The notes below the pieces were generated by a model. The model was not told where the DNA came from. It saw nothing but the letters and a program-made list of their open reading frames with translations, and searched no databases. The position numbers and the translations under genes were made by a program. From Hydrogenophaga sp. NFH-34 (GTDB taxonomy: Bacteria > Pseudomonadota > Gammaproteobacteria > Burkholderiales > Burkholderiaceae_C): DNA of 64,000 nt. Numbering within the stretch: position 1 is the stretch's first letter; every line of letters begins with the position of its first letter. Positions 24,047 through 64,000 of the stretch are shown here, one piece after another. The stretch spans positions 1-64,000 of the forward strand of contig NZ_JACBGE010000011.1 of NCBI RefSeq assembly GCF_021401345.1. Reading direction: 5' to 3'.

Positions 24047-24121
24047 TGGTAGTCCTGGGGAATTCCGAGATCCCGACCCCCGTCTTGTAAGGACGACGCT
24101 CTGCCTCTGAGCTACAGGACC
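24047..24121 (-). tRNA. tRNA-Val (TAC)
   Basis: Cloverleaf with loop CTTACAA and encoded CCA. The acceptor pairs with one G-U. The T-arm is irregular: the 53-61 pair is T-T and the loop lacks the usual TTCRA order. Last gene of the minus-strand array. Confidence 0.8.
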
Positions 24122-24125
24122 GGTT

Positions 24126-24201
24126 TGGTGCGGGCACAGGGATTCGAACCCTGGACCTGCCGGTTAAAAGCCGGCTGCTCTACGCACTGAGCTACGCCCG
24201 C
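24126..24201 (-). tRNA. tRNA-Lys (TTT)
   Basis: Canonical 76-nt cloverleaf: acceptor GCGGGCG/TGCCCGC, loop CTTTTAA, T-loop TTCGAAT and encoded CCA. Confidence 0.95.
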
Positions 24202-24218
24202 GAAAGAGATGAATGGGG

Positions 24219-24295
24219 TGGGGTGTCCTGCCGGACTCGAACCGGCGACCACCCGGACCACAACCGGGAGCGCTGCCAACTGCGCCAAAGACACC
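24219..24295 (-). tRNA. tRNA-His (GTG)
   Basis: Anticodon loop TTGTGGT. The extra G at position -1 opposite C73, the His identity element, is present. CCA is encoded. Confidence 0.93.
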
Positions 24296-24303
24296 ATCGA
24301 AAC

Positions 24304-24378
24304 TGGTAGCCACGGTTGGGATCGAACCAACGACTCCCGCCTTATCAAGACGATGCTCTACCACTGAGCTACATGGCC
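24304..24378 (-). tRNA. tRNA-Ile (GAT)
   Basis: 75-nt cloverleaf with loop TTGATAA, T-loop TTCGATC and encoded CCA. Several G-U pairs in the anticodon stem. Confidence 0.93.
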
Positions 24379-24399
24379 ATGTTGAAGTCGATCGATTAG

Positions 24400-24492
24400 G
24401 ATCAACCTGTCTTGTCTCTCATAATGTGGCTTTTCTGAGATTCAAACCGGGTTGCCTTGAAAGCGTGAGCGTCAACCTGCCTTGTCTCTCAT
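24400..24492. repeat. Direct repeat pair in the array (TCAACCTGYCTTGTCTCTCA)
   Basis: Two copies start at about 24401 and 24471, 70 bp apart. Between them is a TTCAAACC segment resembling a decayed T-arm. The 178-bp gap between tRNA-Ile and tRNA-Asn holds nothing else I can support; it may be the remnant of a duplicated tRNA. Confidence 0.5.
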
Positions 24493-24557
24493 GAGCCTGC
24501 GTTCTTGAGAAGCAAATGATGCACGGGCGTGTTCGCTGTGCCCGAGGCTGTGTGTGT

Positions 24558-24633
24558 TGGCTCCCCCGGCAGGGCTCGAACCTGCGACAACCGCATTAAC
24601 AGTGCGGCGCTCTACCAACTGAGCAACGGGGGA
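24558..24633 (-). tRNA. tRNA-Asn (GTT)
   Basis: 76-nt cloverleaf: acceptor TCCCCCG/CGGGGGA, loop CTGTTAA, G73 and encoded CCA. Confidence 0.95.
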
Positions 24634-24649
24634 TCGGAAGCTGTGCGGC

Positions 24650-24817
24650 CTACCACTCGCCCACCTCGCGCACGCGCTGGTCCACATCCTTGCGGTCGTG
24701 GTCCTTCTGGCGCTTGGCACGGGTGTGTCTGCCACCGCTTGCGATGGTGAGTAGGGTGAGAGCAAGTACCACGCGGTTGCGCGGCTTGCTGGCGGGGATG
24801 GAGATCTTCCTGCGCAT
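24650..24817 (-). CDS. Small basic protein inside the tRNA array
   Basis: 55 aa (MRRKISIPASKPRNRVVLAL...REVGEW). AAAGGAG lies 6 nt before the ATG at 24817, a strong ribosome site. A short hydrophobic stretch at about residues 16-26 is followed by a very charged tail. It lies between the tRNA-Arg(TCT) and tRNA-Asn genes. No family recognised. Confidence 0.5.
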   Translation of the reverse strand: MRRKISIPASKPRNRVVLALTLLTIASGGRHTRAKRQKDHDRKDVDQRVREVGEW

Positions 24818-24851
24818 GTCGCGCTCCTTTCATGGTGTTGGTGGAGAAGGG

Positions 24852-24928
24852 TGGTCCGCCCGGCAGGATTCGAACCTGGCGACAAACCGCTTAGAAGGCG
24901 GCTGCTCTGTCCGCTGAGCTACGGGCGG
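24852..24928 (-). tRNA. tRNA-Arg (TCT)
   Basis: 77-nt cloverleaf with loop CTTCTAA and encoded CCA. One mismatch at the base of the T-stem. Reads AGA, a rare codon in GC-rich hosts. Confidence 0.92.
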
Positions 24929-24937
24929 TGGGATGAA

Positions 24938-25023
24938 TGGACACGGCTGCCGGATTCGAACCGGCGTGTGCTTGCGCATGCGGGTTTGCAGCCCGCCGCC
25001 TTCGACCGCTCGACCAAGCCGTG
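24938..25023 (-). tRNA. tRNA-Cys (GCA) with a long variable arm
   Basis: 86 nt: acceptor CACGGCT/AGCCGTG, U73 (the main tRNA-Cys identity base), loop CTGCAAA with anticodon GCA, encoded CCA. The variable region is 14 nt and can form a TGC-GCAA-GCA stem, a class II shape. Standard tRNA-Cys has a short variable loop. D-arm GGTCGAGCGGTCGAAGGC is Ser-like. Confidence 0.8.
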
Positions 25024-25052
25024 TCTGGATATGGTTTGTGGGGAGGGGAGGG

Positions 25053-25128
25053 TGGCATCCCGGGAAGGAATCGAACCTTCAACCTTCGGCTTTGGAGGCC
25101 GCTGCACTGCCTGTTGTGCTACCGAGAT
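25053..25128 (-). tRNA. tRNA-Trp (CCA)
   Basis: 76-nt cloverleaf with loop CTCCAAA, G73 and encoded CCA. Its 5' end overlaps the stop of the membrane-protein ORF by 10 bp. Confidence 0.93.
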
Positions 25129-25403
25129 ATGCTCTGCTTGTTCGCTGAGCGCCTGGCAAACCAGAACCCTGCTGCCATTGCTGCTGGAACTGCCAAGGCG
25201 TTGGCCGTGACGTACATGATGATTTCGAGTGGACTTGCGCTTGGGGAAAGAACTCGACCCAAGACAAGGATGTTCAGAGCTGCGACGCCTGTTGCTGCTG
25301 CGGCTGCACCGGCCATCGACTTGAGCTGAATGGCCACAGTCTGCAAGGCGATGAAGAAGACCTGGACGAATGTTGCTGCGAAGATGGTTACTGCTTGGAG
25401 CAT
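25119..25403 (-). CDS. Small three-helix membrane protein inside the tRNA array
   Basis: 94 aa from MLQAVTIFAATFVQVFF, with three hydrophobic segments (about residues 3-25, 28-50, 60-85) and a basic tail. It fills the 365-bp space between tRNA-Ser(TGA) and tRNA-Trp. No strong ribosome site is visible, so the start is uncertain. The family is unknown. Confidence 0.5.
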   Translation of the reverse strand: MLQAVTIFAATFVQVFFIALQTVAIQLKSMAGAAAAATGVAALNILVLGRVLSPSASPLEIIMYVTANALAVPAAMAAGFWFARRSANKQSISR

Positions 25404-25492
25404 CCGAGCATTTGAATGCTGCTGTCCCACGGCAAAGAAGCAAAAGCATGCATCGTTCCGCAGGCTCTCATGTTGGAGTGCGGGGGATGGGG

Positions 25493-25582
25493 TGGCGGGC
25501 GCTGTGAGATTCGAACTCACGGACCGGTTCCCCGGTCGGCAGTTTTCAAGACCGCTGCAATAGACCACTCTGCCAAGCGCCC
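25493..25582 (-). tRNA. tRNA-Ser (TGA)
   Basis: 90-nt class II tRNA with long variable arm, loop CTTGAAA, G73 and encoded CCA. Confidence 0.95.
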
Positions 25583-25602
25583 AGGATAAAAAAGATGTGA
25601 GG

Positions 25603-25680
25603 TGGTGCCCGAGGTGGGACTCGAACCCACGGAGAACTCGCTTTTGAAACGAGCGCGTCTACCAATTCCGCCACTCGGGC
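25603..25680 (-). tRNA. tRNA-Leu (CAA) with a short variable loop
   Basis: 78 nt with a Leu-type D-arm, loop TTCAAAA giving anticodon CAA, A73 and encoded CCA. The variable region is only 6 nt (TTCTCC), whereas leucine tRNAs normally have a long arm; compare the adjacent tRNA-Leu(GAG). Confidence 0.85.
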
Positions 25681-25698
25681 ATGAGGGTCGGTTGCTGG

Positions 25699-25783
25699 TG
25701 GTACCCAGGGCGGGACTCGAACCCGCACGCCTTTCGACACCGGCCCCTCAAGCCGGCGCGTCTACCAATTCCGCCACCTGGGT
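25699..25783 (-). tRNA. tRNA-Leu (GAG)
   Basis: 85-nt class II tRNA: stem CCGGC/GCCGG, loop TTGAGGG, normal long variable arm and encoded CCA. Confidence 0.93.
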
Positions 25784-25896
25784 GAACACTCATCAGGGAG
25801 ATCCGTGCCGATCAGCCTTTCGTTTGCCGGCGTGCTTGAAACGCCTAGCGCGGGTTGGCCTGCCGTCGCCACGGCTGTCTATGGCGAGGGCTATGC

Positions 25897-25972
25897 TGGC
25901 GCATCAGGATGGAATCGAACCACCGACGCCTGCGCCTTCAACGCAGCGCTCTACCGGCTGAGCTACTGATGC
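25897..25972 (-). tRNA. tRNA-Phe (GAA)
   Basis: 76-nt cloverleaf: acceptor GCATCAG/CTGATGC, loop TTGAAGG, G73 and encoded CCA. Confidence 0.95.
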
Positions 25973-26011
25973 AGCTTTTTGATCAAGACCCCGCAAGGGT
26001 GGCCTATGCAA

Positions 26012-26090
26012 CCATGCACGCCCCGGAGTCGAACCGAGGCGTTTGGGGGCATGATCCCCGCTGCAGCCAACCGCATCACCGTGACGCCGG
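26012..26090 (-). tRNA. Degenerate tRNA-Met-like sequence (CAT)
   Basis: It has a TTCGACT T-loop, a GGGG/CCCC anticodon stem with loop ATCATGC, and a D-arm-like TGC-GGTTGGCT-GCA. I could not form a standard 7-bp acceptor or find an encoded CCA. It may be a decayed tRNA-Met gene. Ends are approximate. Confidence 0.35.
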
Positions 26091-26114
26091 GGCCTTGATC
26101 AAAGAACTGAACAA

Positions 26115-26191
26115 TGGCGCCTCGAAGGGGATTCGAACCCCTGACCTCCCGCTAGACAGGCGGGCACTCTAGGCCGCTGAGTTACCGAGGC
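26115..26191 (-). tRNA. tRNA-Asp (GTC)
   Basis: 77-nt cloverleaf: loop CTGTCTA, G73, encoded CCA. D-stem starts ACTC instead of GCTC, paired with GAGT. Confidence 0.94.
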
Positions 26192-26199
26192 TGATGAAA

Positions 26200-26275
26200 T
26201 GGTCTCCGTGGACGGTCTCGAACCGCCGACCCCATGCTCCCAAAGCAAGTGCGCTACCAACTGCGCTACACGGAG
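26200..26275 (-). tRNA. tRNA-Pro (TGG)
   Basis: 76-nt cloverleaf with loop TTTGGGA, A73 and encoded CCA. One T-T mismatch in the anticodon stem. Confidence 0.92.
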
Positions 26276-26283
26276 ACGAACAC

Positions 26284-26359
26284 TGGTGGAAGTAGCCGGC
26301 CTCGAACCGGCGACCCCCTGCTTGCAAAGCAGGTGCTCTCCCAACTGAGCTATACCCCC
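26284..26359 (-). tRNA. tRNA-Ala (TGC)
   Basis: 76-nt cloverleaf with loop TTTGCAA and encoded CCA. The acceptor has G-U pairs at positions 3 and 4, the latter next to the usual Ala identity position. Confidence 0.93.
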
Positions 26360-26604
26360 TGGAAATGGTTGATGGCGACGGGCCTTCACCGTTCTGGCCT
26401 CGTACAGCGACCCTTTCCCAGTCCGCCAGTTCACGCTGGCGCCGTCGGCGGTATCGCTGGTTTGATGGACGTGCCATAGTGCCCTTGCCCCGGCCAACGA
26501 CCTGACAGCCGTTCCGTGAGGGGTCACAACGAACCCGTCGCCATCGTCGAAACAACCTCAATGAAGTGGCTTCGATGATGGGCCGCGTGCGCGGCGCATC
26601 TGAC
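26360..26604. other. 245-bp spacer in the tRNA array, no supported gene
   Basis: I looked for tRNA-Thr and tRNA-Glu, which are missing from the array, and found no T-arm or encoded CCA. Short frames run through it but also through flanking tRNAs, so I do not call them. Confidence 0.4.
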
Positions 26605-26693
26605 TGGTGGAACGTCCTGGGTTCGAACCAGGTATGCCCCGAAGGGAGCCAGATTTACAGTCTGGTGCAGTCAACCCATGCTGCTCACGTTCC
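26605..26693 (-). tRNA. tRNA-Tyr (GTA)
   Basis: 89-nt class II tRNA: loop CTGTAAA, long variable arm CTCCCTTCGGGGCAT, T-loop TTCGAAC, encoded CCA. Confidence 0.95.
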
Positions 26694-26699
26694 GTGGCC

Positions 26700-26777
26700 T
26701 GGAGCCACCCGCAGGATTCGAACCTGCGACCCCCGCGTTCGTAGCGCGGTGCTCTAGTCCAACTGAGCTAGGGCGGC
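26700..26777 (-). tRNA. tRNA-Arg (ACG)
   Basis: 78-nt cloverleaf: loop CTACGAA, T73, encoded CCA. A34 would need TadA deamination to inosine. Confidence 0.94.
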
Positions 26778-26790
26778 GAATTTTGTTCGG

Positions 26791-26868
26791 TGGTGCGCGT
26801 GGATGGATTCGAACCACCGGCCTCCGGCATCGGAAGCCGGTGCTCTGGTCCAACTGAGCTACACGCGC
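26791..26868 (-). tRNA. tRNA-Arg (CCG)
   Basis: 78-nt cloverleaf: loop TTCCGAT, acceptor GCGCGTG/CACGCGC, encoded CCA. Third arginine isoacceptor in the array. Confidence 0.94.
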
Positions 26869-26880
26869 TGGATTGATGAC

Positions 26881-26946
26881 TGGTCGTTCCGGGTCCACCG
26901 CACGCAGGCTTATGAGCCCAGTGCTCTACCGCTGAGTTACGAAACG
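26881..26946 (-). tRNA. 66-nt tRNA-Met-like gene lacking a T-arm (CAT)
   Basis: A 7-bp acceptor CGTTTCG/CGGAACG (one G-U), A73 and encoded CCA are intact, as are the D-arm and loop CTCATAA. Only 13 nt separate the anticodon stem from the acceptor 3' strand, against about 22 normally, and there is no TTCRA loop. The anticodon stem has two mismatches. Either a deleted pseudogene or an armless tRNA. Confidence 0.5.
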
Positions 26947-26949
26947 ATC

Positions 26950-27024
26950 TGGCAGACCCTGCTGGACTCGAACCAGCGACACCCGGGATCAAAACCCGGT
27001 GCTCTACCAACTGAGCTAAGGGCC
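26950..27024 (-). tRNA. tRNA-Gln (TTG)
   Basis: 75-nt cloverleaf: loop TTTTGAT, G73, encoded CCA. Acceptor has one mismatch at pair 3-70. It lies 3 bp from the 66-nt tRNA-Met-like gene. Confidence 0.92.
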
Positions 27025-27032
27025 AACGGAAC

Positions 27033-27121
27033 TGGCGGATGGTGCAGGGTTCGAACCTGCGCAGCCCTTGCGGGATGACGGGTTAGCAACCCGCTGCCTT
27101 GGACCACTCGGCCAACCATCC
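27033..27121 (-). tRNA. tRNA-Ser (GCT)
   Basis: 89-nt class II tRNA: loop TTGCTAA, long variable arm, G73, encoded CCA. Confidence 0.95.
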
Positions 27122-27245
27122 CGCACGCGGGGAGTGGCTTAGCCACCCGGTTCGCCCGCTGCACCAGAGCCTTTCGGATCCAGCACATAGCGCCCACCGT
27201 TCCCTCGGCAGATCTTGGACGCCAGGTGCACGGACACACCCGAAA

Positions 27246-27320
27246 TGGAGCGGATACGGGGAATTGAACCCACGGTCCTCTGCTTGGAAGGCAGTCGCTC
27301 TACCATTGAGCTATATCCGC
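27246..27320 (-). tRNA. tRNA-Gly (TCC)
   Basis: 75-nt cloverleaf: acceptor GCGGATA/TATCCGC, loop CTTCCAA, encoded CCA. First gene of the array in the direction of transcription. Confidence 0.95.
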
Positions 27321-53787: not shown

Positions 53788-54959
53788 GGAAGGTCTGCAC
53801 AACACCCGCTGCAGCGTGAGTTGATGCACTCGATTTCGGCTTGCGCCGGTTGCTGGCTCGCAGGGGCTGTTTGGAGTCCGATTTCGCCCCGATTGGCGGC
53901 CTTCTGGCCGCCTGCAGACGCACTCATCCCTGCATCTCTTGCAGCAACGTGCGCCGCACCATCCACAGGTTGGACAGCGCAAACAGCGTGCGCAGTTGCG
54001 CCGTGTTCTTGGCCAGCCCCCGGTAGCGAACCTTCACATGCCCGAACTGGCACTTGATCACCCGGAACGGGTGTTCAACCTTGGCCCGCATGCGCGCCTT
54101 GAGCTGTTCGAGTCGGTCGAGGATTGCGCCCCTGGGCGTGCTCTTGTCCAGCACCTTGCGCTTGCCCGGTCGCATCGCAACGTGCCAGTGGGCGTTGATG
54201 CCTTGGGTCTCTTCTCGCTTGTCCACGCCTTGGTAGCCCGCATCGGCAAGGACATTGGTTTCCTCTCCGTGCACCAGCGCATGCGCCTGCGTCACGTCGT
54301 TGACATTGGCAGCCGTGCCCACCACCGTGTGCACCAGGCCCGAGTCCGCATCGATCCCAATGTGGGCCTTCATCCCGAAGTGCCATTGGTTGCCCTTCTT
54401 GGTCTGGTGCATCTCGGGGTCGCGTTCGCCGCCGCTGTTCTTGGTCGAACTCGGTGCAGCAATCAGCGTGGCATCGACCACGGTGCCGCTCTTGAGAAGC
54501 AGGCCCTTGGCCGCCAGCGTGGCGTTAACGGTGGCCAGGATCTGCAAGCTAAGGTTGTGGGCTTCGAGCAGATGGCGAAAGCGCAGGATGGTGCTCTCGT
54601 CGGGCAGGTTGTCTTCGCCAGCGTCCAGCCCCACAAACTCGCGGAACAGCGCCATGTCGTACAGCGCTTCTTCCATGGCCGGGTCCGAGAGGTTGAACCA
54701 CTGCTGCAGGAAGTGAATGCGCAGCATGGTCTCGACGGCAAACGGCGGGCGTCCGCCCTTGGCGCCCGGTGCCGGCGCATGCGGTGCGATCAACGACACC
54801 AGCTCAGCCCACGGCACCACCAGGTTCATCTCGTCCAGGAACTCGCGCTTGCGTGTGCGCTTGGTCTTGCGCTCGAATCCGCTCTCGCCCAGGCTCATTT
54901 GCTTCATGCCGTCAATGTCTCACATCGGGCCAGGGGTGCCGGGGTTGTGCAGACCTTCC
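53788..54959 (-). mobile_element. IS5-family insertion sequence (1172 bp)
   Basis: Terminal inverted repeats GGAAGGTCTGCACAAC (53788-53803) and GTTGTGCAGACCTTCC (54944-54959) are perfect. Both sides have the 4-bp target duplication CTAA (53784-53787, 54960-54963), the YTAR type typical of IS5. All parts are intact, indicating recent insertion. Confidence 0.95.
53924..54907 (-). CDS. IS5-family DDE transposase
   Basis: 327 aa. DUF772 N-terminus (PPFAVETMLRIHFLQQWFNLSD). DDE catalytic motifs: VVDATLIAAPSSTKN, VLADAGYQGVD and the YREK-like region (RMRAKVEHPFRVIK). Full length, no frameshift. Confidence 0.95.
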   Translation of the reverse strand: MKQMSLGESGFERKTKRTRKREFLDEMNLVVPWAELVSLIAPHAPAPGAKGGRPPFAVETMLRIHFLQQWFNLSDPAMEEALYDMALFREFVGLDAGEDNLPDESTILRFRHLLEAHNLSLQILATVNATLAAKGLLLKSGTVVDATLIAAPSSTKNSGGERDPEMHQTKKGNQWHFGMKAHIGIDADSGLVHTVVGTAANVNDVTQAHALVHGEETNVLADAGYQGVDKREETQGINAHWHVAMRPGKRKVLDKSTPRGAILDRLEQLKARMRAKVEHPFRVIKCQFGHVKVRYRGLAKNTAQLRTLFALSNLWMVRRTLLQEMQG

Positions 54960-56199: not shown

Positions 56200-56757
56200 A
56201 CGTTGATTCTGATGACGAGTGCCGATGGTGGACCATGAATACCTATGTTCAAAGGGCTACATTTGTTCGCACGCTCTTGTGCATCGGAAGAAAAATATCT
56301 CTACTCACAAAACCACATCTGTGGAACGAGATGGCCGGCCCAGTGCTCCGAATCTCTTGGCCCGCCAACCAGCGACCTTCGTGTCGCCCCTCTGAGCCTG
56401 ACTACTCAGATTGACATGTGCCCGTTGCGGCGATTGGCCTAGTCAGCCAAATGGTGAACCTGCCAGTGTCAACGTCCAGGCTAATCCTGACGTGATGCAG
56501 ATGGTCCCGTAAGGGTGCGTGTCCTGTATGCGCAGTCCCTTGTGGGGCTGGGCGGATTCGCTACTTCGCAATGTGTGGTTGTTCTACAACCGCAGCAAAA
56601 GCCCCCTCCGAACCACCAACCACGGTTCGGAGGGGGTCGGCCTTTTCAGACACCCATCAAACAACACTAAGCCGCTCGCTGATCAAGATATCCTTTTTCG
56701 GGCATCTCGATAAGCCGGTGGCTGCGCTCATTTTTTTCAACTTCATACATGAAGGAG
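56200..56757. other. 558-bp intergenic region
   Basis: No convincing gene. It holds a strong hairpin at 56602-56636 (CCCCCTCCGAACC/GGTTCGGAGGGGG) followed by GGCCTTTT, which could terminate plus-strand transcription or act as a variant of the downstream leaders. The divergent promoters for 56199 and 56758 should lie here. Confidence 0.4.
56602..56646 (+). terminator. Strong hairpin followed by CCTTTT
   Basis: A 13-bp stem with a 9-nt loop, then TCGGCCTTTTC. It is terminator-like, or a leader-type stem for the 63-aa gene. Confidence 0.5.
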
Positions 56758-56949
56758 ATGAGTATGCTGAAAATCCAAGCAACCGTGTACTCCCAGTGCC
56801 GCGCAAGCCGGCGCAATTTCCTCCAGCCCGAGTTCCACGGCACTCGAAGCGAATGCAATCGATTCATATCAGATCGCGCAAGGCAAGGCCGTCCGACGCA
56901 TTTCTCGTTCTTGTCGTCCATGGATCGTCGCAAAGCCACCCGTAGGTAA
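56758..56949 (+). CDS. Small basic protein
   Basis: 63 aa (MSMLKIQATVYSQCRASRRNFLQPEFHG...). AAGGAG lies just upstream, overlapped by a CTTCAT-AC-ATGAAG hairpin that could mask it. It precedes the radC leader. Unknown function. Confidence 0.5.
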   Translation: MSMLKIQATVYSQCRASRRNFLQPEFHGTRSECNRFISDRARQGRPTHFSFLSSMDRRKATRR

Positions 56950-56957
56950 TGCGATGA

Positions 56958-57056
56958 GGCGCTTCGTGCGCCTTCCTTGGTGTTGCTCAAGCAGCACCAA
57001 GGAAGGCTCATGCCGTTTCCTATTTGAAAACCTCATTCGAGGAAAGGAAACGCAAA
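56958..57056 (+). promoter_or_regulatory. Structured leader A (radC)
   Basis: P0: GGCGC/GCGCC hairpin at 56958-56972. P1: GCCTTCCTTGGTG/CACCAAGGAAGGC, 13 of 13 bp (56970-56982, 56995-57007), sharing bases with P0. P2: GTTTCC (57015-57020) opposite GGAAAC (57046-57051) at the Shine-Dalgarno. ATG at 57057. Confidence 0.65.
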
Positions 57057-57629
57057 ATGAACACCATATCTGCATCGATCGACGAACTCTTGCAGTTCGC
57101 CTTTGGCCTGACCCCGCAACAGGCCGAAGAAGCGAAGGACCAACTATTCCCGCGAAATGGTCAGCTTTTCCTCCAGGACAGCGCAGGCTTCGACGCTCGC
57201 GCAAAGCTGGAGGCAGCAGTCGAAATTGATCGCCGTATAGCCGCATCGAAATTGGCTTCGGTTAGCAGCCCTGAAATGGCGGTCGAAATGCTCAGAAAGA
57301 TCATTGGACCGCAGGAGCATGAGTCGTTCTGGTGTATCTGGCTCGATTCACAGCACAACATCATTGGTGCCGAAGAGATGTTTCGCGGAACTGCCACGCA
57401 GACCTCTGTTTATCCTCGGGAAGTGGTGAAGAAAGCACTGAAGACCAACGCATCAGCGATCATCATGGCCCACAACCACCCCAGCGGAAGCACCCAGCCC
57501 AGCCGCTCTGACGAAGAACTCACGCGCACGGTCAAGTCCGCGCTAAGCCTGGTCGATGTGAGGGTGCTCGATCACGTCATCATCACTCGGGAGAAGACGA
57601 CTTCCATGGTCGCCATGGGTCTTTTCTAA
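57057..57629 (+). CDS. radC: RadC-family JAB-domain protein
   Basis: 190 aa. JAMM metal motif HNHPSGSTQPSRSD (His139, His141, Asp152) with upstream Glu in GAEEMFRG. The RadC N-terminal helix-hairpin part is reduced. RadC-like genes are frequent ICE/phage cargo; the function is not settled. The SD is inside leader A. Confidence 0.9.
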   Translation: MNTISASIDELLQFAFGLTPQQAEEAKDQLFPRNGQLFLQDSAGFDARAKLEAAVEIDRRIAASKLASVSSPEMAVEMLRKIIGPQEHESFWCIWLDSQHNIIGAEEMFRGTATQTSVYPREVVKKALKTNASAIIMAHNHPSGSTQPSRSDEELTRTVKSALSLVDVRVLDHVIITREKTTSMVAMGLF

Positions 57630-57642
57630 ACCCATCTCAAAC

Positions 57643-57736
57643 CCCGCTTCGGCGGGTTTTCCAGTGGGGAATGCCACCGGAAAGCCCACCGGCTTTTGTC
57701 CTTTCAAAACTCACTTTCGAGGAAAGGATACGAGAC
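57643..57736 (+). promoter_or_regulatory. Structured leader B
   Basis: P0 CCCGC-TTCG-GCGGG then TTTT (57643-57660). P1 GGTTTTCCAGTGG/CCACCGGAAAGCC (57655-57667, 57674-57686), 12 of 13 pairs, reusing the P0 3' arm and its T-run. P2 TCCTTTC (57699-57705) pairs with GAAAGGA (57722-57728), the SD of the next gene. Confidence 0.75.
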
Positions 57737-58099
57737 ATGGACTGGAAAACGCAAGCCTCCATGGAGGCCGAAAAGAACTGCACGGTCATCGCGATGCGTA
57801 ACCGTGCTCAATGGCATCGTGAGCGTGGCATGGACTTCTTGAACAACAGCGTTCGAGCCATGGCTCAGCATGATGACGATGCCAGGGCTCTCGATGCAGC
57901 GGCCGACATGATCGTCCAAGAGCACATCGCCAACGCGGGCGTCAAGGCCGGCGTGTACGAGTCGGCAGTCACCGGCTTCGATCGTGTTCGTGGGAAGTAC
58001 GTCGAGGTTCGAGACGAGAAGGGCTGGCGCTGCATCTGGAGTGAAAAGCTCAATGCACAAGAGGCAGTGGATATGGAGGCATCCGATGCCTATTCCTAA
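57737..58099 (+). CDS. Hypothetical protein
   Basis: 120 aa, helical (MDWKTQASMEAEKNCTVIAMRNRAQWHRERGMDFLNN). ATG fixed by GAAAGGA at 8 nt. It overlaps the DUF262 gene by 14 bp. Unknown. Confidence 0.65.
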   Translation: MDWKTQASMEAEKNCTVIAMRNRAQWHRERGMDFLNNSVRAMAQHDDDARALDAAADMIVQEHIANAGVKAGVYESAVTGFDRVRGKYVEVRDEKGWRCIWSEKLNAQEAVDMEASDAYS

Positions 58100-58586
58100 A
58101 CGGCTTCTAAGGGGGACAACGCGGGAAACCACGATCGAACACCTGTTTCTGCGTGAAACGGCGATCAATTGCCATCCTGGCGAACGCCTCATCTTCAACC
58201 AGTTCATTCCACCCTGGCAGAGGCCGGAGGTGTGGACCATCGAGCAGAAGCGCAACTTCCTTGAAAGCGTCTTCCTCGGTCTGAACTGCGGGTTGATCGT
58301 GTGCAACGGCTTGGACTGGACTGCCAGCGGGCGAAAGCCGATGTCGGGATGGGTTCTGGATGGCCAGCAGCGTTTGACGGCTCTGCGTGAGTTCATCGAA
58401 CGCGGCATGCTCATCTTCGATGACGTGACTTATCACGGGATTAGCCCCGTCGAGAAACTGCGATTTCACCGAAAGCATTTCACACGCCATGAGCTGGACT
58501 ACATCGATGATGAGTCTGTTCTCAAGGAACTGTACAACCGTCTCAACTTTGGTGGAACAAGCCACTATCACTCCCAGAGACTTTGA
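58086..58586 (+). CDS. Stand-alone DUF262 (GmrS-like) domain
   Basis: 166 aa. FIPPWQRPEVWTIEQKRNFLESVFLGL (QRP at 45-47) and LDGQQRLTALREF (DGQQR at 92-96) are the ParB/sulfiredoxin-like NTPase motifs of DUF262. Type IV enzymes such as GmrSD add a DUF1524 HNH nuclease, which is missing here and has no partner downstream. Possibly a regulator or half of a restriction enzyme. Confidence 0.82.
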   Translation: MPIPKRLLRGTTRETTIEHLFLRETAINCHPGERLIFNQFIPPWQRPEVWTIEQKRNFLESVFLGLNCGLIVCNGLDWTASGRKPMSGWVLDGQQRLTALREFIERGMLIFDDVTYHGISPVEKLRFHRKHFTRHELDYIDDESVLKELYNRLNFGGTSHYHSQRL

Positions 58587-58617
58587 TTTTTCAATATTAC
58601 GGAAGAAGGAATCTGCA

Positions 58618-58899
58618 ATGCAACTGCTGCTTACGAAATCACTGAATATCACATCGAAGAATGGTGTGGCTTTGGAACTCTTTCCTGTCCACATGGAAAA
58701 TGGATTTCCGAGTCGAGACCCGGGCCTGTGGTTGGATTTTCTATATCCACCAAGCAAAGAGAACACTCATGAGCTGAGCGCAATAGAGTGTGAAAAGGCC
58801 CAAGACTACATGCGAAAGCATCAGACTGAAGCGCTCAGCGAGGATGGGGAAAAAGCCTTCACCATAGCTGGGGACCGTTTGGTTCGGTGCAAGCCGTAG
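58618..58899 (+). CDS. Hypothetical protein
   Basis: 93 aa (MQLLLTKSLNITSKNGVALELFPVHMENGFPS...). AAGGA lies 8 nt before the ATG and no structured leader is present, unlike its neighbours. Unknown. Confidence 0.55.
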   Translation: MQLLLTKSLNITSKNGVALELFPVHMENGFPSRDPGLWLDFLYPPSKENTHELSAIECEKAQDYMRKHQTEALSEDGEKAFTIAGDRLVRCKP

Positions 58900-58923
58900 C
58901 TCATCTTAAAACAATGAAAGACC

Positions 58924-59019
58924 AACCCGCATCAGTGGGTTTTCTCATTCGTGAAGGAATGAGAAAGCCTGTTGGCACTCCTTTCTAGTCACCGACATGT
59001 TCGGTATGAAAGGAAAAAT
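58924..59019 (+). promoter_or_regulatory. Structured leader C
   Basis: P0 AACCC/GGGTT (58924-58941). P1 GGTTTTCTCATTC/GAATGAGAAAGCC (58938-58950, 58957-58969), all 13 pairs, loop GTGAAG. P2 TCCTTTC (58979-58985) with GAAAGGA (59008-59014), enclosing a small ACCGA/TCGGT hairpin. Confidence 0.78.
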
Positions 59020-59904
59020 ATGAGCATCATGAGCTTTCCCGATCGTGGGAATTGGGGGAAATCGGCGTGGCGTGGCAACTGCAGTGGCCATGTCTACAAA
59101 GAACTGTTCGAGCGCCTGAAGCCTGGTGTTTTTGTTGACCCCATGGTCGGCTCTGGCACCTCCGTTGAGGTGGCGAAGGAAATGGGCATTGAGGCCTATG
59201 GCCTGGATCTGCATTCCGGATTCAACGCCGTCAGGGACAGCATTCTGCTGGCCGTGGGGAAGCCTGCTGACCTGTGCATCTCGCACCCTCCCTATGGCGC
59301 GATGATCGTGTACAGCGGCAACGTCTGGGGAAAGGCAGATCCCAATGACTTGTCCCGCTGCCCGAGCGATGAAGACTTCCACGAGAAGATGCAGCTCGTG
59401 CTGATGAACCAACGTGAGGCCACCAACTCCGGTGGTTACTACGGGACGATCATCGGAGACTGGCGCCGCAAGGGGGTCTATACCAGCTACCAGGCTGAAA
59501 TGATCGCCCGGATGCCCAAGGGTGAGTTGGCCGCGGTGATCATCAAGGCTCAGCACAACTGCACATCTGACCGCAAGACGTATGGTTTGATGAAGCTGCC
59601 CCACATCCTCCACGAGTACATCCTGCTCTGGCAGAAGAAGGCGGTTCCTGTCCTGCTGATGCTCCGCGATCTCGCGCATCAGCAATACAGCCGGCTGACC
59701 GGCACCTGGAAGAACATCGTCAAGTGCATCCTGATGGAGCTTGGCGGTAAATCCGACCTGTCGGCGATCTACCAGGAAATCGAAAAGTCCGCACCGGACA
59801 AGCTTGCAAGTAATCCCCACTGGAAAGCCAAGATCCGGCAAACCCTCAACCAGAATGAAGACCTGTTCAGGCCCGTTGCAACTGGTGTCTGGGCGATCGC
59901 CTGA
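59020..59904 (+). CDS. DNA methyltransferase (N6A/N4C type)
   Basis: 294 aa. Motif I DPMVGSGTSVEVAKEMG (40-56) and motif IV SHPPYG (88-93); the usual Asn/Asp/Ser before PPY is His here. An N-terminal target part is minimal. No restriction partner is adjacent. Could protect the element from host restriction. Confidence 0.8.
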   Translation: MSIMSFPDRGNWGKSAWRGNCSGHVYKELFERLKPGVFVDPMVGSGTSVEVAKEMGIEAYGLDLHSGFNAVRDSILLAVGKPADLCISHPPYGAMIVYSGNVWGKADPNDLSRCPSDEDFHEKMQLVLMNQREATNSGGYYGTIIGDWRRKGVYTSYQAEMIARMPKGELAAVIIKAQHNCTSDRKTYGLMKLPHILHEYILLWQKKAVPVLLMLRDLAHQQYSRLTGTWKNIVKCILMELGGKSDLSAIYQEIEKSAPDKLASNPHWKAKIRQTLNQNEDLFRPVATGVWAIA

Positions 59905-59918
59905 TTCCAAAACCCAAA

Positions 59919-60024
59919 CCCGCTTCGGCGGGCTTTCTTCTGGTGCTTGCCGGACCCAGTAGAAAGCCTACCCGGCTTTCCTTTCTCTCATCGCCGCATC
60001 TGCCGGCAATTCAGAAAGGAAACC
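59919..60024 (+). promoter_or_regulatory. Structured leader D
   Basis: P0 CCCGC-TTCG-GCGGG then CTTTC (59919-59937). P1 GGCTTTCTTCTGG/CCAGTAGAAAGCC (59931-59943, 59956-59968), 12 of 13. P2 TCCTTTCT (59979-59986) with AGAAAGGA (60013-60020), 8 of 8. ATG at 60025. Confidence 0.78.
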
Positions 60025-60339
60025 ATGAGCAACAACATCAAAATTACGGCCTTGCCGTACGACATCAATCCGGAGGCTTCCAGCGAAGGCTACGGACCTG
60101 AGTACATGTGCCGAGTAAGCGCCAAGACTGCCCGTGGACTCGCCCGTATGTACCCCATGCCTCGCATGGGCGAAAGTCTCACCGTCGCCATCCCGCGACT
60201 GGCGTTGGTCAACGTGTCGGGCAGCTTCTACCTTCGCCACACGGATGTACCGATCCGCGATTGGCCTTCGGTCTTCAGGATCGAGGTCATTCAAAGCAAG
60301 GATTCCAAGGCCAGCAAAGAAGAGGGGGCCGAGGCATGA
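60025..60339 (+). CDS. Hypothetical protein
   Basis: 104 aa (MSNNIKITALPYDINPEASSEGYGPEYMCRVS...), beta-rich. The stop overlaps the cytosine methyltransferase start (ATGA), so the pair is coupled. Unknown. Confidence 0.65.
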   Translation: MSNNIKITALPYDINPEASSEGYGPEYMCRVSAKTARGLARMYPMPRMGESLTVAIPRLALVNVSGSFYLRHTDVPIRDWPSVFRIEVIQSKDSKASKEEGAEA

Positions 60340-61760
60340 GCATCCGGCGATACCTCATCCGCAAGCTCGGCGAACACCGCGGCTCGCCGCGCCTTTACAT
60401 CGACACGATGGCGCTGAAGGAAGCCGGCTTCGAGCCTGGCGCATCCTACACGCGCCACGTCGATAAGGAGGCAGGCCGCATCGTGCTCAAGCTCGATCCG
60501 ATTGGGACGCACCGCGTCTCCAAGAAGGAAAAGAGCGGCAACACGATGCCGGTGATCGACATCAACAGCCGTGAGGCTCTGAGTCCCCTGGATGGCCTGC
60601 AAGCCGTGAGGCTGGTAATCCAGGACGGCATGATTGCCGCAATGGCCCCGGCCTCGCAACTGAACGCTCGTCGCCGGCTGCATCGTTTGCGCGAACACCT
60701 GGTGCAGGGCAGGGTGGTCACAGGGTCGCTCTCGCATGGCGGGGGTATCCTGGACAACGCCGCGCATGCAGGCTTGGCATCTGCCGGTGTCGATTCGAGC
60801 CTCGCTTTTGCCAATGAAATCGACGAGGGCCTGATGGAGCACTCCAGCAAGGTCAACGAAATCTGGGACATGGGCACGATCGGGATTGGCGCTGGCATGC
60901 AGGAGGCCGTCCAGGATGAGTGGCTGATGCAGCGTCTGCCGCAGATCGACGTTCTGGCCGTGGGCATTCCGTGCAGCGGCGCATCGAAAGCCGGTGCCGC
61001 CAAGCGCAAGCTGGAGTTGATGGAGAATCACCCGGAAGTAGGTCACCTGGCCGCCAGCTTCCTGATGATGGTCCAACGCACCCAGCCCGCGGTTGTCGTT
61101 GTCGAGTGTGTTCAGGAGTATGCGAATACTGGGTCCGCCCAGATCATCCGCCAGCACCTTCGAGACAGTGGCTACAACGTCAATGAGGTCACCCTGAAAG
61201 GGGAGGACTTTGGCGTGCTGGAATGTCGCAAGCGCTGGTTCTTGGTGGCCGCTACGAACGGAATCACCATCGAGCTGGACAAGTTGGAGCCCGCCTGTAC
61301 TCCGGTCCGGATCGTTGCCGAAGCTCTCGATGAGATTGCCGATGATGACGCAATCTGGCGCAGCTTCGACTACCTCAAAGCCAAAGCTGTCCGTGACGTG
61401 GAGAAGGGAAACAACTTCTCCATGCAACTCGTGCAGCCTACTGATACGTTCGTACCTACGCTGCGCAAGGGTTATCACAAAGGCGGATCAACCGACCCGC
61501 TCCTGGCGCATCCCCGCAAAGAAGGACTGTACCGGTTGTTCACGGCAAAGGAGCATGCTCGAATCAAGCAGATCCCAGATCACCTGATCGTTGGTATGTC
61601 CGAGTGTCGAGCACACCAACTCCTAGGACAGAGCGTGCTGTTCACTCCTGTTAAGGCGCTGTTCAACCGGATCGGGCAAGCACTGGCGATGTGGGTAGAA
61701 GGCGAGCAAACCTCCAGCACCTACTCAGCCGGCTACAACCTGATCCGTGCAACCGGTTGA
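60336..61760 (+). CDS. DNA cytosine-5 methyltransferase with AbrB-like N-terminus
   Basis: 474 aa. Motif I-like SLSHGGGILDNAAHAGLASAG (131-151), motif IV GIPCSGASKAG with catalytic Cys213, motif VI VVECVQEY (Glu257) and motif VIII ECRKRWFLVA. Residues 19-55 (RLYIDTMALKEAGFEPGASYTRHVDKEAGRIVLKL) resemble an AbrB/SpoVT swapped hairpin, an unusual fusion. No cognate endonuclease nearby. Confidence 0.82.
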   Translation: MSIRRYLIRKLGEHRGSPRLYIDTMALKEAGFEPGASYTRHVDKEAGRIVLKLDPIGTHRVSKKEKSGNTMPVIDINSREALSPLDGLQAVRLVIQDGMIAAMAPASQLNARRRLHRLREHLVQGRVVTGSLSHGGGILDNAAHAGLASAGVDSSLAFANEIDEGLMEHSSKVNEIWDMGTIGIGAGMQEAVQDEWLMQRLPQIDVLAVGIPCSGASKAGAAKRKLELMENHPEVGHLAASFLMMVQRTQPAVVVVECVQEYANTGSAQIIRQHLRDSGYNVNEVTLKGEDFGVLECRKRWFLVAATNGITIELDKLEPACTPVRIVAEALDEIADDDAIWRSFDYLKAKAVRDVEKGNNFSMQLVQPTDTFVPTLRKGYHKGGSTDPLLAHPRKEGLYRLFTAKEHARIKQIPDHLIVGMSECRAHQLLGQSVLFTPVKALFNRIGQALAMWVEGEQTSSTYSAGYNLIRATG

Positions 61761-61776
61761 CTGACCAATAACGAAG

Positions 61777-61825
61777 TCCCTTCGGGGGCTTTCTTCTGGA
61801 TGTTGATGCTCTCCAGAAGAAAGCC
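61777..61825 (+). promoter_or_regulatory. Incomplete leader E (P0/P1 only)
   Basis: P0 TCCC-TTC-GGGG then GCTTTC. P1 GGCTTTCTTCTGGA/TCCAGAAGAAAGCC is a perfect 14-bp stem (61787-61800, 61812-61825). No P2 or gene follows; palindrome copy 6 begins 11 bp later. Confidence 0.7.
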
Positions 61826-62032
61826 AAACCCGTAGCAGCGTCCAAAATTGAGCGCTCGAATTCGACGACAACTGATGCGACTTTTGATCGCCTCGGTAGT
61901 AGGTGACTTCTCAGAATGAACCCATCTGGCATCTGTCCGCTACTGCGGAAGCCAGATCACTTCCACTGCAATCTCAGGTCCGTGCTCACCCAGAGTAGCG
62001 CGACCCATATGCGCTCACCAAGATCCCCGGCC
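61826..62032. other. Intergenic stretch between leaders E and F
   Basis: Besides palindrome copy 6 it contains a nested hairpin ATCTGGC/GCCAGAT around TCCGC/GCGGA (61924-61957). No gene seen. Confidence 0.4.
61836..61857. repeat. AAATTT palindrome, copy 6
   Basis: Core GCGTCCAAAATTGAGCGC followed by TCGAATTCG. It is the reverse complement of copy 1 with one change. It sits where leader E would be expected to have P2. Confidence 0.65.
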
Positions 62033-62127
62033 GGCTTCCTCATGGTGCCCTTCAAGGCCACATGAGAAAGCCATTCGGCACTTCCTTTCAACCAATACCA
62101 GTTCGTCTGGAAGAAGGGAAATTCGAA
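62033..62127 (+). promoter_or_regulatory. Structured leader F
   Basis: P1 GGCTTCCTCATG/CATGAGAAAGCC (62033-62044, 62061-62072), 11 of 12. P2 TTCCTTTC (62082-62089) with GAAGGGAA (62113-62120), one G-U. No clear P0; only CCGGCCGG precedes. ATG at 62128. Confidence 0.7.
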
Positions 62128-62571
62128 ATGAAAGCTCAAACGATCGCGTGCCAATACGCACCGTACGAACTCATCAAGGAATGGGGTATCCGTGGTGTAC
62201 GCCACCCCCTGGCACTGACCCAGGCCCCTGATGCAGCCACTTCTCGAAGAATGGTCAAGAAGCTCTTCCCGTACATGAGCAAGGAAGAGCATGCACTTCA
62301 TGCGCGGGCATGGGAGCGTGAACTTCACATCTTGCAAGACTGTTGGAAGAAAACGGTGGACAAGAGCTTTCGGAAGATCTTTGGCCGCCCGTACACGGCG
62401 GCTGACTATGTGGTTAGCGGAATCGCCCGAGACGAGTTCGATGAACCCACAAAGAAGAAACTTCGTCTGATCTGCCACAAGCAGAGCGTTGCAGCGTCAG
62501 CGGGGAATGCCCATGCATCGGCCGCTACCAAGGCTGTCATGGCAAAGTTCCAGGAGGTGCAACATGCTTGA
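62128..62571 (+). CDS. Hypothetical protein
   Basis: 147 aa (MKAQTIACQYAPYELIKEWGIRGVRHPLALTQAPDAATSRRM...), basic and helical. Overlaps the next gene by 8 bp. Unknown. Confidence 0.65.
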   Translation: MKAQTIACQYAPYELIKEWGIRGVRHPLALTQAPDAATSRRMVKKLFPYMSKEEHALHARAWERELHILQDCWKKTVDKSFRKIFGRPYTAADYVVSGIARDEFDEPTKKKLRLICHKQSVAASAGNAHASAATKAVMAKFQEVQHA

Positions 62572-63088
62572 GCTGGCACTTCCTCGCCACGTTCTGGACG
62601 AACGGGACCAGGCCCTTGCAAAAGTGATCAAGGCTGCTTGGCTCGACCGTCCCGGAATGCGTGTTGGTGACTTCGTTCATTGGCCCAATGGGGAAGTCCG
62701 CCGCTGCTCTTACGACTGGGGTGACGGCATGCAGACCAGCAAGATCGACAAAGGAAGCTTCTACATCGGTCGTGATGCAGGAGTCTCGTTTTCTGGGGGG
62801 CTCCAGCCGGCAAATCCGATGGAGTTCTTCAAGCCCACCGACGAGATCATGGACGGTAGGTTCTGGTTCTTCTCCCATGGAAGGCCCGGCGCCGGCAGGG
62901 GCAAGGACGTGACGCTTCCTTGCAGGGTGTATCTCCTGGAACCCTATGCAATGTCCGAGGAAGAGGCCATGAGGCGACCTCAGATGCGCCGAATCCTGCA
63001 GGAGTGGGGCAAGCGCTCACATGTCTTTCGCGAGAACCTGCAGGCTTTGATTGATCCGCCTGTCCTCCGCGATCCCGACTACTACTGA
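62564..63088 (+). CDS. Hypothetical protein
   Basis: 174 aa. AGGAGG precedes the ATG inside the end of the upstream gene. Sequence VGDFVHWPNGEVRRCSYDWGDGMQTSKIDKGSFYIG looks like a small beta domain. Unknown; probably co-expressed with the 147-aa protein. Confidence 0.65.
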   Translation: MLELALPRHVLDERDQALAKVIKAAWLDRPGMRVGDFVHWPNGEVRRCSYDWGDGMQTSKIDKGSFYIGRDAGVSFSGGLQPANPMEFFKPTDEIMDGRFWFFSHGRPGAGRGKDVTLPCRVYLLEPYAMSEEEAMRRPQMRRILQEWGKRSHVFRENLQALIDPPVLRDPDYY

Positions 63089-63246
63089 AGCGAATGTAGC
63101 CATCTCGATCTCCGAAATCGAAGTGGCTTCAACGCTGAAAGAAAGCAGATTCAACTCATTGTGCGCAGCAGCGTGCGATGGGTTTTTTGTGCTCGTCTTT
63201 TAACCCAGCGGACTGTTCCGCACCCTATCATTTTCAGGAGAAATGC

Positions 63247-64000
63247 ATGCACAACGAAATCACAAAGGCTGTCCTGGCCGAAAAGTACCTCAAGGGCGAA
63301 GAGCAATCCGCCCAAGACCTGTTCAAGCGCGTGTCTGCAGGCATCGCGAAGGCAGAGCAGAATCCCAAAGCCACGCAAGAGTGGGCCATGAAGTTCGAAA
63401 CCATGATGAACCACGGCGCCATCGGTGCAGGCCGCATCATGAGCGCAGGCGGTACCGATATCAAGGCAACCCTCATCAACTGCTTCGTGCAACCGGTGGG
63501 AGACTGCATCACGGGCATGGACGATGACGGGTATCCCGGAATCTACACCGCCCTGCAGGAAGCCAGCGAGACGATGCGCCGCGGCGGCGGTGTGGGCTAC
63601 GACTTCTCGCGGATTCGCCCCAAAGGCGCTTTCGTGAAGGGCACCCACAGCGAAGCCAGCGGCCCGTGCAGCTACATGGACGTGTTCGACCAAAGCTGCA
63701 AGACAGTCGAGTCGGCTGGCTCGCGCCGTGGTGCCCAGATGGGTGTCCTGCGGATCGACCACCCCGACGTGCTGGAGTTCATCACGGCCAAGCGCACGCC
63801 CGGTCGTTGGAACAACTTCAACGTCAGCCTGTTCGTCGAGGATGCCTTCTTCTTCGCGATGGCTGCCGGTGCCGAGTGGGAACTCGTCCACAAGGCTGAG
63901 CCCAGCCCGAAGACCAAGGCAAACAACCCCGGGATCTATCAGCGTGAATCTGATGGCAAGTGGGTGTACGCCAAGGTCAATGCAGCCGAACTGTGGGACA
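63247..64000 (+). CDS. nrdJ: Class II (B12-dependent) ribonucleotide reductase, partial
   Basis: First 251 residues; the gene continues past the window edge. IGAGRIMSAGG, TLINCFVQPVGD (first redox Cys) and RRGGGVGYDFSRIRPKGAFVKGTHSEASGP are typical of NrdJ. It reduces ribonucleotides without oxygen dependence. CAGGAG precedes the ATG. The 158-bp leader contains a stem GCCATCTCGAT/ATCGAAGTGGC. A host-independent dNTP supply on a mobile element is phage-like. Confidence 0.88.
   Translation, partial: MHNEITKAVLAEKYLKGEEQSAQDLFKRVSAGIAKAEQNPKATQEWAMKFETMMNHGAIGAGRIMSAGGTDIKATLINCFVQPVGDCITGMDDDGYPGIYTALQEASETMRRGGGVGYDFSRIRPKGAFVKGTHSEASGPCSYMDVFDQSCKTVESAGSRRGAQMGVLRIDHPDVLEFITAKRTPGRWNNFNVSLFVEDAFFFAMAAGAEWELVHKAEPSPKTKANNPGIYQRESDGKWVYAKVNAAELWD

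Follow-up and report, generated by a model that had tools for sequence, protein, structure and literature searches.

A covarying family of RNA leaders upstream of many genes on conjugative-type elements of Comamonadaceae

Introduction

The question raised by this locus is whether six structured leaders, A to F, which lie on a contig of Hydrogenophaga sp. NFH-34 (NZ_JACBGE010000011.1, 168 kb, below called C2), are copies of one RNA, and what such an RNA might do for the genes behind it. The window is the whole 64,000-nt stretch of this contig that was analysed, and coordinates refer to it unless C2 or another record is named. A reading of the sequence alone had proposed that the leaders share one plan, which proved to be real and larger than claimed, as judged by folds, a covariance model and leader clusters on other elements. 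The leaders do form an RNA family, one that covaries and has no entry in Rfam. Its general kind, the cis-regulatory leader, is known, and the family is unusual in its copy number per element and in the conserved competition between two of its helices, P0 and P1. With about 26 matches on one element, this strongly covarying family is new to Rfam, and the same type of leader stands before dozens of genes on large mobile elements of Comamonadaceae.

A covarying RNA family

From 5' to 3', a leader runs from the end of an upstream open reading frame (ORF) through the hairpin P0, the stem P1 and a linker to the stem P2, which encloses a loop and the small hairpin P3, and ends at a start codon. P0 is typically AAGCCCC-UUCG-GGGGCUU, a short GC hairpin followed by a short U-tract, and its 3' arm is at the same time the 5' arm of P1, typically GGGGCUUUCUnYUG...CARnAGAAAGCC. 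The linker often carries GGCUU. In P2, typically UCCUUUC...GAAAGGA, the 3' arm is the Shine-Dalgarno (SD) sequence, and the loop inside often reads YAAC.

The size of the family was estimated in several ways. In the 5.18-Mb genome, the pattern TTTC-GAAAGCC-CTTTC has 12 forward and two reverse matches; this contig holds 12 of the 14, and the reversed control pattern has one match in the whole genome. In a scan of the contig, the P1-P2-SD-start plan was present in 10 of the 23 plus-strand hairpins considered vs none of the 19 on the minus strand. The covariance model R1, built from 15 of 19 hand-parsed leaders, gave 39 genome matches at E<=1 (150 of 1357 first-look candidates scored; the 15 seeds included), every one of them on this contig. 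Thirty are on the plus strand, and the nine on the minus strand overlap them, which is expected because the leader hairpins are near-palindromic. At E<=0.002 there are 26 plus-strand matches, at least three of which (61785 and, beyond the window on C2, 65883 and 126873) lack P2 by reading, and some copies are degenerate or partial. The repeated use that the sequence-only reading had proposed is thus borne out, and its count was too low because many of the copies on this contig fall beyond the end of the window.

A lack of covariation in homologous leaders had been named as one result that would refute the proposal; covariation was found, with swap tests standing in for R-scape. These tests, in which arms are exchanged between leaders and the best pairing is searched afresh for each swap, were run on 91 leaders from eight elements (an earlier subset held 62). 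The leader table kept 39 of 59 R1 matches, after 17 reverse-strand shadows and three partial, duplicate or misaligned ones had been dropped, a further 29 of 40 (11 on the reverse strand dropped), and 23 of the 30 plus-strand matches of C2. Own arms pair far better than swapped arms in P1 (z 26; 16 within elements; 0/200 swaps reach the own score), P0 (z 14; 10 within elements; 0/300) and P2 (z 7.7; 8.1 within elements; 87 of the 91 leaders; 0/200), vs z values of 1.0 and -1.1 in like-with-like controls, where no pairing is expected. A first arm-swap count was biased because the P1 3' arms in the leader tables were placed by best pairing, which the later test searches again; the P2 offsets come from a parse that was itself selected by pairing. 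Compared with single-letter shuffles, the hairpin of the P3 region is the better one (z 11), and YAACH stands in the loop region of 59/91 leaders, the mean under the same null being 21. Px, a helix of the P1 3' arm with the linker, is weak (z 2.3 overall, 1.8 within elements), and the swap tests lend no support to the 1:4 pairing, in which the linker would pair with the P0 5' arm (z 0.4).

Alignments point the same way. In A5, which holds 44 R1 matches from outside the seed element, is fitted to the model and includes three rows that are reverse-strand shadows, 94.7% of cells are paired, and double changes occur in 16/23 pairs, a value that 0/500 shuffles reach and that slides also fall far below. 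The unguided RNAalifold fold of A5 is P1; P2/P3 were not recovered from it. Another alignment, A3, was made by hand to the structure, so a test on it favours the structure. P2 keeps its pairing with different letters in GTGGTT/AACCAC (genome G385 of the family sample described below) and in the alternative GTGATTC/GAATCAC of two Hydrogenophaga leaders. P1 has a recurrent 1x1 mismatch at one stem position, unpaired in 28/62 leaders and in 19/44 rows of A5, and its loops are mutually unlike, with a median pairwise identity of 0.27 and values above 0.7 in 16/4095 pairs (91 leaders).

The functional form is favoured to be plus-strand RNA, as indicated by strand-specific loops and G-U pairs. The P0 loop is cUUCGg in 30/91 leaders on the plus strand and in none in the reverse sense, and among 62 leaders P1 column 4 has 19 U-G and 0 C-A pairs. 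All 14 P1 columns together hold 68 G-U and 41 A-C pairs; the mismatch together with the two outer columns accounts for 27 of the latter, and column 7 for eight.

Leaders A to F in the window

All six leaders lie on the plus strand and form P1 when folded, and P2 covers the SD in A, B, C, D and F; each folding energy beats 200/200 dinucleotide-preserving shuffles (z -3.2 to -6.5). P1 and the predicted SD masks are placed by folding, P1 of B to F is matched by the covariance model as well, and the genes were assigned by Pfam search. Leader A consists of a terminator-like P0 (56956..56974, flagged by the terminator scan), P1 (56968..57009) and the P2 mask (57014..57052), behind which a radC-like gene follows (PF04002, 57057..57629). 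Leader B has P0 at 57643..57656, placed by reading the sequence and unflagged by the scan, P1 at 57653..57688 and the P2/P3 mask at 57697..57730, in front of a gene without a Pfam family (57737..58099). In leader C, a flagged P0 (58924..58941), P1 (58936..58971) and P2/P3 (58979..59014) precede a DNA methylase-like gene (59020..59904; PF01555, with a score under the curated cut-off). Leader D comprises a flagged P0 (59919..59932), P1 (59929..59970), a terminator-like Px (59962..59980), which is weak as a family feature, and P2/P3 (59977..60022); its gene, without a Pfam family (60025..60339), is overlapped at its end by the start of a C5 cytosine methylase gene (PF00145, 60336..61760). Leader E is an orphan unit of P0 (61773..61792, unflagged) and P1 (61785..61827), with neither P2 nor an SD and start codon directly downstream. 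Leader F has P1 (62031..62074) and P2/P3 (62082..62120) without P0, and stands before another gene without a Pfam family (62128..62571).

Several details of the sequence-only reading needed correction. Its P1 pattern, GG(C/T)TTTC...GAAAGCC, holds in B, C, D and E, and fails in F (GGCTTCC/GAAAGCC) and in A, where the lower stem GCCTTCC/GGAAGGC is off the consensus and nevertheless paired. The upper-stem pairs that it quoted are present in B to F, with one mismatch each in B and D, at the position often mismatched across the family. The pairing of P2 with the SD is CCTTTC/GAAAGG in B, C and D and varies in F (CCTTTC/GAAGGG) and A (CGTTTCCT/AGGAAACG); E lacks it. As for a terminator-like P0 in A to E, the overlap with P1 is present in all five, and the scan flags it in A, C and D only.

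On C2, the positions 61785/62031 and 126873/127074 form two pairs of like make-up. The first member of each is a P0/P1 unit that lacks P2, and the second, about 200-250 nt downstream, is a P1/P2 leader whose P0 is weak or absent; the sequence between the members may be what is left of a lost gene. At locus L092, near 5364 on the minus strand, a P0/P1 unit has a P2-like sequence that seems to lie about 70 nt downstream, not directly adjoining, which seems a further sign that the leader modules can move apart.

Genes and elements that carry the leaders

Contig C2 encodes a TraD/TrwB-type coupling protein, a CagE/TrbE/VirB-type protein, TrbL- and TrbI-family proteins and a T2SSE-family ATPase, which mark the element as conjugative-type, either a plasmid or integrated. 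The genes behind leaders encode RadC, methylase-like, DUF932, AAA_23/SMC-like, metallophosphoesterase, Toprim primase, beta-clamp, NinX and DUF1419 proteins, and many have no Pfam family. Orthologues keep their leader: the DUF932 genes of C2, G385, G377 and Polaromonas (61-72% protein identity), and likewise genes for the primase (53%), the phosphoesterase (53%), RadC (46%) and the beta-clamp (23-31%).

Elsewhere in the window, a gene at 58086-58586 for a GmrSD N-terminal domain (PF03235, 166 aa) matches only positions 13-77 of the 199 in the profile and is possibly a fragment. The contig with the conjugative-type genes also holds an array of 20 tRNA genes, at 24050-27320 (-). An ORF at 53924-54907 (-), presumably an IS5-type transposase, has the coupling-protein gene to one side and the leaders to the other. 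A strong terminator-like hairpin without an R1 match (63153-63184) stands upstream of a ribonucleotide reductase gene (PF02867, from 63247).

The covariance-model search of related genomes that had been suggested as a check found clusters on seven further elements, so that eight elements carry them, all from Comamonadaceae (Polaromonas, Hydrogenophaga, Giesbergeria etc.). On each element the copies lie on one strand, with reverse-strand matches overlapping forward ones. In the family sample, 6/399 genomes have R1 matches at E<=0.01, the own genome among them; G385 and G377 carry one-strand clusters, three others have a single weak match each, and four genomes of the same genus have none at this threshold. 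The order sample gave a match in the own genome alone (1/399, E<=0.001), and the class sample in 3/369 at E<=0.001, namely in the own genome and in two others that have a single weak match apiece and no cluster; both samples overlap the family sample and were strictly filtered. As about 10 candidates were scored per genome, all these counts are lower bounds (the own genome yields 10 there vs 39). One-strand clusters are also found on the plasmid CP087967.1 of Polaromonas sp. P1-6, and clusters lie near relatives of the DUF932 gene in Hydrogenophaga aromaticivorans and in metagenome-assembled genomes (MAGs) of Hydrogenophaga and Giesbergeria, while Giesbergeria anulus has three copies. At the DUF932 genes of H. 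aromaticivorans and two Giesbergeria, the R1 match ends on the start codon. Locus L102 is probably the same contig as G377:C40.

No R1 match was found at E 0.5 near DUF932 relatives in Paraburkholderia, an Anaerolineae MAG and 13 viral contigs. Among plasmids that resemble the element in DNA, mainly at the methylase gene, those of Hydrogenophaga PBL-H3, Delftia, Piscinibacter and Comamonas have none at E 0.1, a Simplicispira plasmid has one at 0.042, and Sulfuricystis has two overlapping weak ones. A lone weak match on both strands at C5:131350-131450, in locus L096 (G259:C5:125001-137000), may be a lone relative or chance.

A possible control in two modules

It is considered somewhat probable that the leaders are a new family of cis-acting RNAs which would provide a common post-transcriptional control of accessory genes on conjugative-type elements; on this model they look like a common on/off control for a gene set. 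The masking of the SD that the sequence-only reading had proposed is predicted by the P2/P3 fold, in which P2 has covariation of its own. In 43/62 leaders, picked for a well-parsed P2, a choice that flatters the figure, the SD arm has an unpaired probability of 0.10 vs 0.40 when the upstream part is shuffled, and the value is lower in 40 of the 43. A conserved helix thus lies over the SD, and P2/P3 may act as a translation lock of the following gene.

P0 and P1 are mutually exclusive, as had been proposed, since they have the P1 5' arm in common and both helices are supported by the swap tests; because one arm serves both, their exclusivity is itself conserved. The further claim of an attenuator, in which P1 would oppose termination at P0, fails on timing. 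In the 91 leaders, where P0 was sought only upstream of P1, the P1 3' arm lies behind the position of the P0 T-run, by a median of 21 nt at its start and 35 nt at its end, so P1 is made too late to decide termination at P0, no antiterminator forms ahead of that decision, and P1 is no ordinary antiterminator for P0. P1 can form only on RNA whose transcription has passed P0, and P0/P1 is therefore read instead as a module of the preceding gene, for read-through or for its end, behind an upstream ORF of at least 60 codons that ends <=250 nt before P1 in 84/91 leaders (median 44 nt; open frames, not called genes). The absence of P2 from E and of a clear P0 from 19/91 leaders makes P0/P1 and P2/P3 look separable. 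Since P1 overlaps the P0 3' arm, a complete P1 needs transcription begun upstream of that arm; no sigma-70-like promoter was found in 56500-63400 (6.9 kb; 2.4 expected), and one transcription unit across the leader region is plausible from the sequence.

On this model, transcription would come into each intergenic region from the preceding gene, and P0, soon after the upstream stop codon, would terminate or pause part of the transcripts. On RNA that is read through, P1 would fold and capture the P0 3' arm, and P2 with P3 would pair the SD and keep the next gene closed. The lock might then yield to a protein or small RNA that binds to the loop or unfolds the hairpin, or to a change of growth state; such a trans-acting signal would be common to the leaders. 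A bolder version, in which a single trans factor reads the P2/P3 internal loop and opens about 25 genes together as an element-wide RNA regulon, with P0/P1 coupling each gene to read-through from the preceding one, is tentative and rather doubtful. If true, joint opening could serve, for example, entry into a new cell, and the leaders would act in relay, as two-state RNA switches placed one after another on long transcripts.

Several observations weigh against such a control. The P1 state is favoured in 78/91 leaders, by 3.0 kcal/mol over the P0 state on average across the 91 (the two lie within 3 kcal/mol in 45/91), which may tip the pair to one side at equilibrium. The P0 T-tract is short, the scan flags P0 of the window leaders in A, C and D only, and the leaders without a clear P0 count here too. 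Seven of 91 fail the automated P2 test, which is rough both ways, as E passes although it lacks P2. As to trans factors, five genomes or records contain no CsrA-family match, on which ground control by CsrA was rejected, and their NusG and ProQ matches are on other contigs only, to which the draft elements may continue. Outside leaders, the loop motif occurs on C2 only at 130109, 152647 and 159958, each with two mismatches, which is estimated to be near chance level and offers no convincing antisense candidate.

Alternative explanations

An unlikely alternative is segmentation of the mRNA, in which RNase III or another endonuclease would cut the P1 stem on read-through RNA. The upstream half would refold P0 to protect its 3' end, and the other half would begin with Px/P2; a long polycistronic transcript would thereby be divided into pieces the size of a gene, and masking would be secondary. 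The frequent 1x1 mismatch at one position of P1, the arm common to P0 and P1, through which cleavage would free P0, the existence of E as a P0/P1 unit without P2 and the nearby end of the upstream ORF would all fit; P1 stems in the window folds are just ~10-20 bp, however, and the covarying P2 mask would be left unexplained. This mask and the common arm also tell against processive antitermination, which is improbable. There, P0 would be a series of internal terminators that silence stray transcription and are passed by a polymerase modified at the start of the operon, with P1/P2 as bystanders or a put-like RNA. The terminator-like P0 series (hairpin score >=14 in 72/91 leaders) and the lack of a promoter-like site agree with it, and there is a precedent in conAn of pLS20, by which more than 20 terminators inside the operon are reported to be passed (PMC8955417); the T-tracts of P0 are weak, though, and the element contigs of the five genomes or records have no NusG match, with the same reservation about draft elements.

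Ordinary terminators and ordinary SD hairpins without regulation, made into a family by common descent and the base composition of one element type, are slightly less probable still. Terminators behind stop codons are common, degenerate or partial copies exist, and the P2 5' arm presumably resembles the 16S rRNA 3' end as any SD-pairing arm does, but the pairing of P0, P1 and P2 withstands swaps within elements, and the recurrent mismatch and the loop motif persist among leaders whose P1 loops are otherwise unlike. It is very improbable that the leaders work as single-stranded DNA, as an Frpo/ssi-like promoter or replication start on the strand transferred in conjugation. The restriction to one strand per element, the wealth of hairpins and the conjugative-type element would suit such a role, and methylases and similar genes are leading-region types in PMC11541004; strand-specific cUUCGg, G-U pairs and the placement relative to the SD and start codon indicate RNA, however, and 56500-63400 holds none of the 2.4 sigma-70-like sites expected. 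Among these readings the common post-transcriptional control remains preferred, and as many copies and orthologous genes are at hand, the function of the leaders is open to direct mutation tests and to a search for a common factor.

Comparison with known systems

The impression that no described RNA has this plan is upheld by Rfam 15. At gathering score, the window contains the 20 tRNAs only, and nothing was found in C2 56001-167815 or in six loci of other elements (L089, L092, L094, L099, L101 and L103); a permissive search of 56500-63400 gave at most 22.5 bits, all under the gathering scores. No earlier description of the family was found in the literature searched, most subscription journals being outside its scope.

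Translational attenuators and other leaders that sequester the SD, such as those of the erm type and riboswitches, combine helices that are alternatives to each other with an SD hidden in a hairpin. The present leaders resemble them in both respects, and differ in that the P0/P1 pair lies upstream of the SD hairpin and can be absent, and in that no Rfam riboswitch matches; no consistent leader peptide was noticed on reading the window leaders, without statistics.

Among conjugative elements, PMC11541004 describes Frpo promoters that carry -35 and -10 elements, by which candidates were sought. Like Frpo/ssi, the leaders are hairpins upstream of genes of leading-region types, and unlike them they bear signs of RNA sense and lack a -35/-10 site in 56500-63400. 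With pLS20 they may have in common many intrinsic terminators within long conjugative operons that have to be read through (PMC8955417). Yet conAn is one protein and one RNA at the start of an operon, whereas the leaders are a two-module RNA before many genes, with a predicted SD mask.

The nearest parallel is the radC RNA (RF01754), whose accession is a table entry in PMC2864571 and also appears for PMC7657543. Both RNAs are structured and occur in many copies, and Rfam classes the radC RNA as cis-regulatory. Its model has 149 positions and other helices, none of its copies is among the R1 matches, and it finds nothing at gathering score in the window, C2 from 56 kb or the six loci of other elements. 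As an identity for the leaders it was rejected, its sequence and fold being different and 56500-63400 giving no match even at E 10. Crudely called proteins behind eight radC RNAs have no blastp match to the leader genes. We know of no account of radC RNA function. The radC RNA lies upstream of DNA-processing genes, and the leaders likewise precede such genes (radC, methylase, DUF932, primase and beta-clamp) beside many others without a Pfam family. Elsewhere in the same genome, contigs C4 and C11 (L001-L008) hold nine radC RNA copies over the cut-off, on one strand per contig, so that this genome carries two unrelated families of repeated structured RNA. Mobile elements may thus control sets of genes through common RNA leaders, as the radC RNA may do too.

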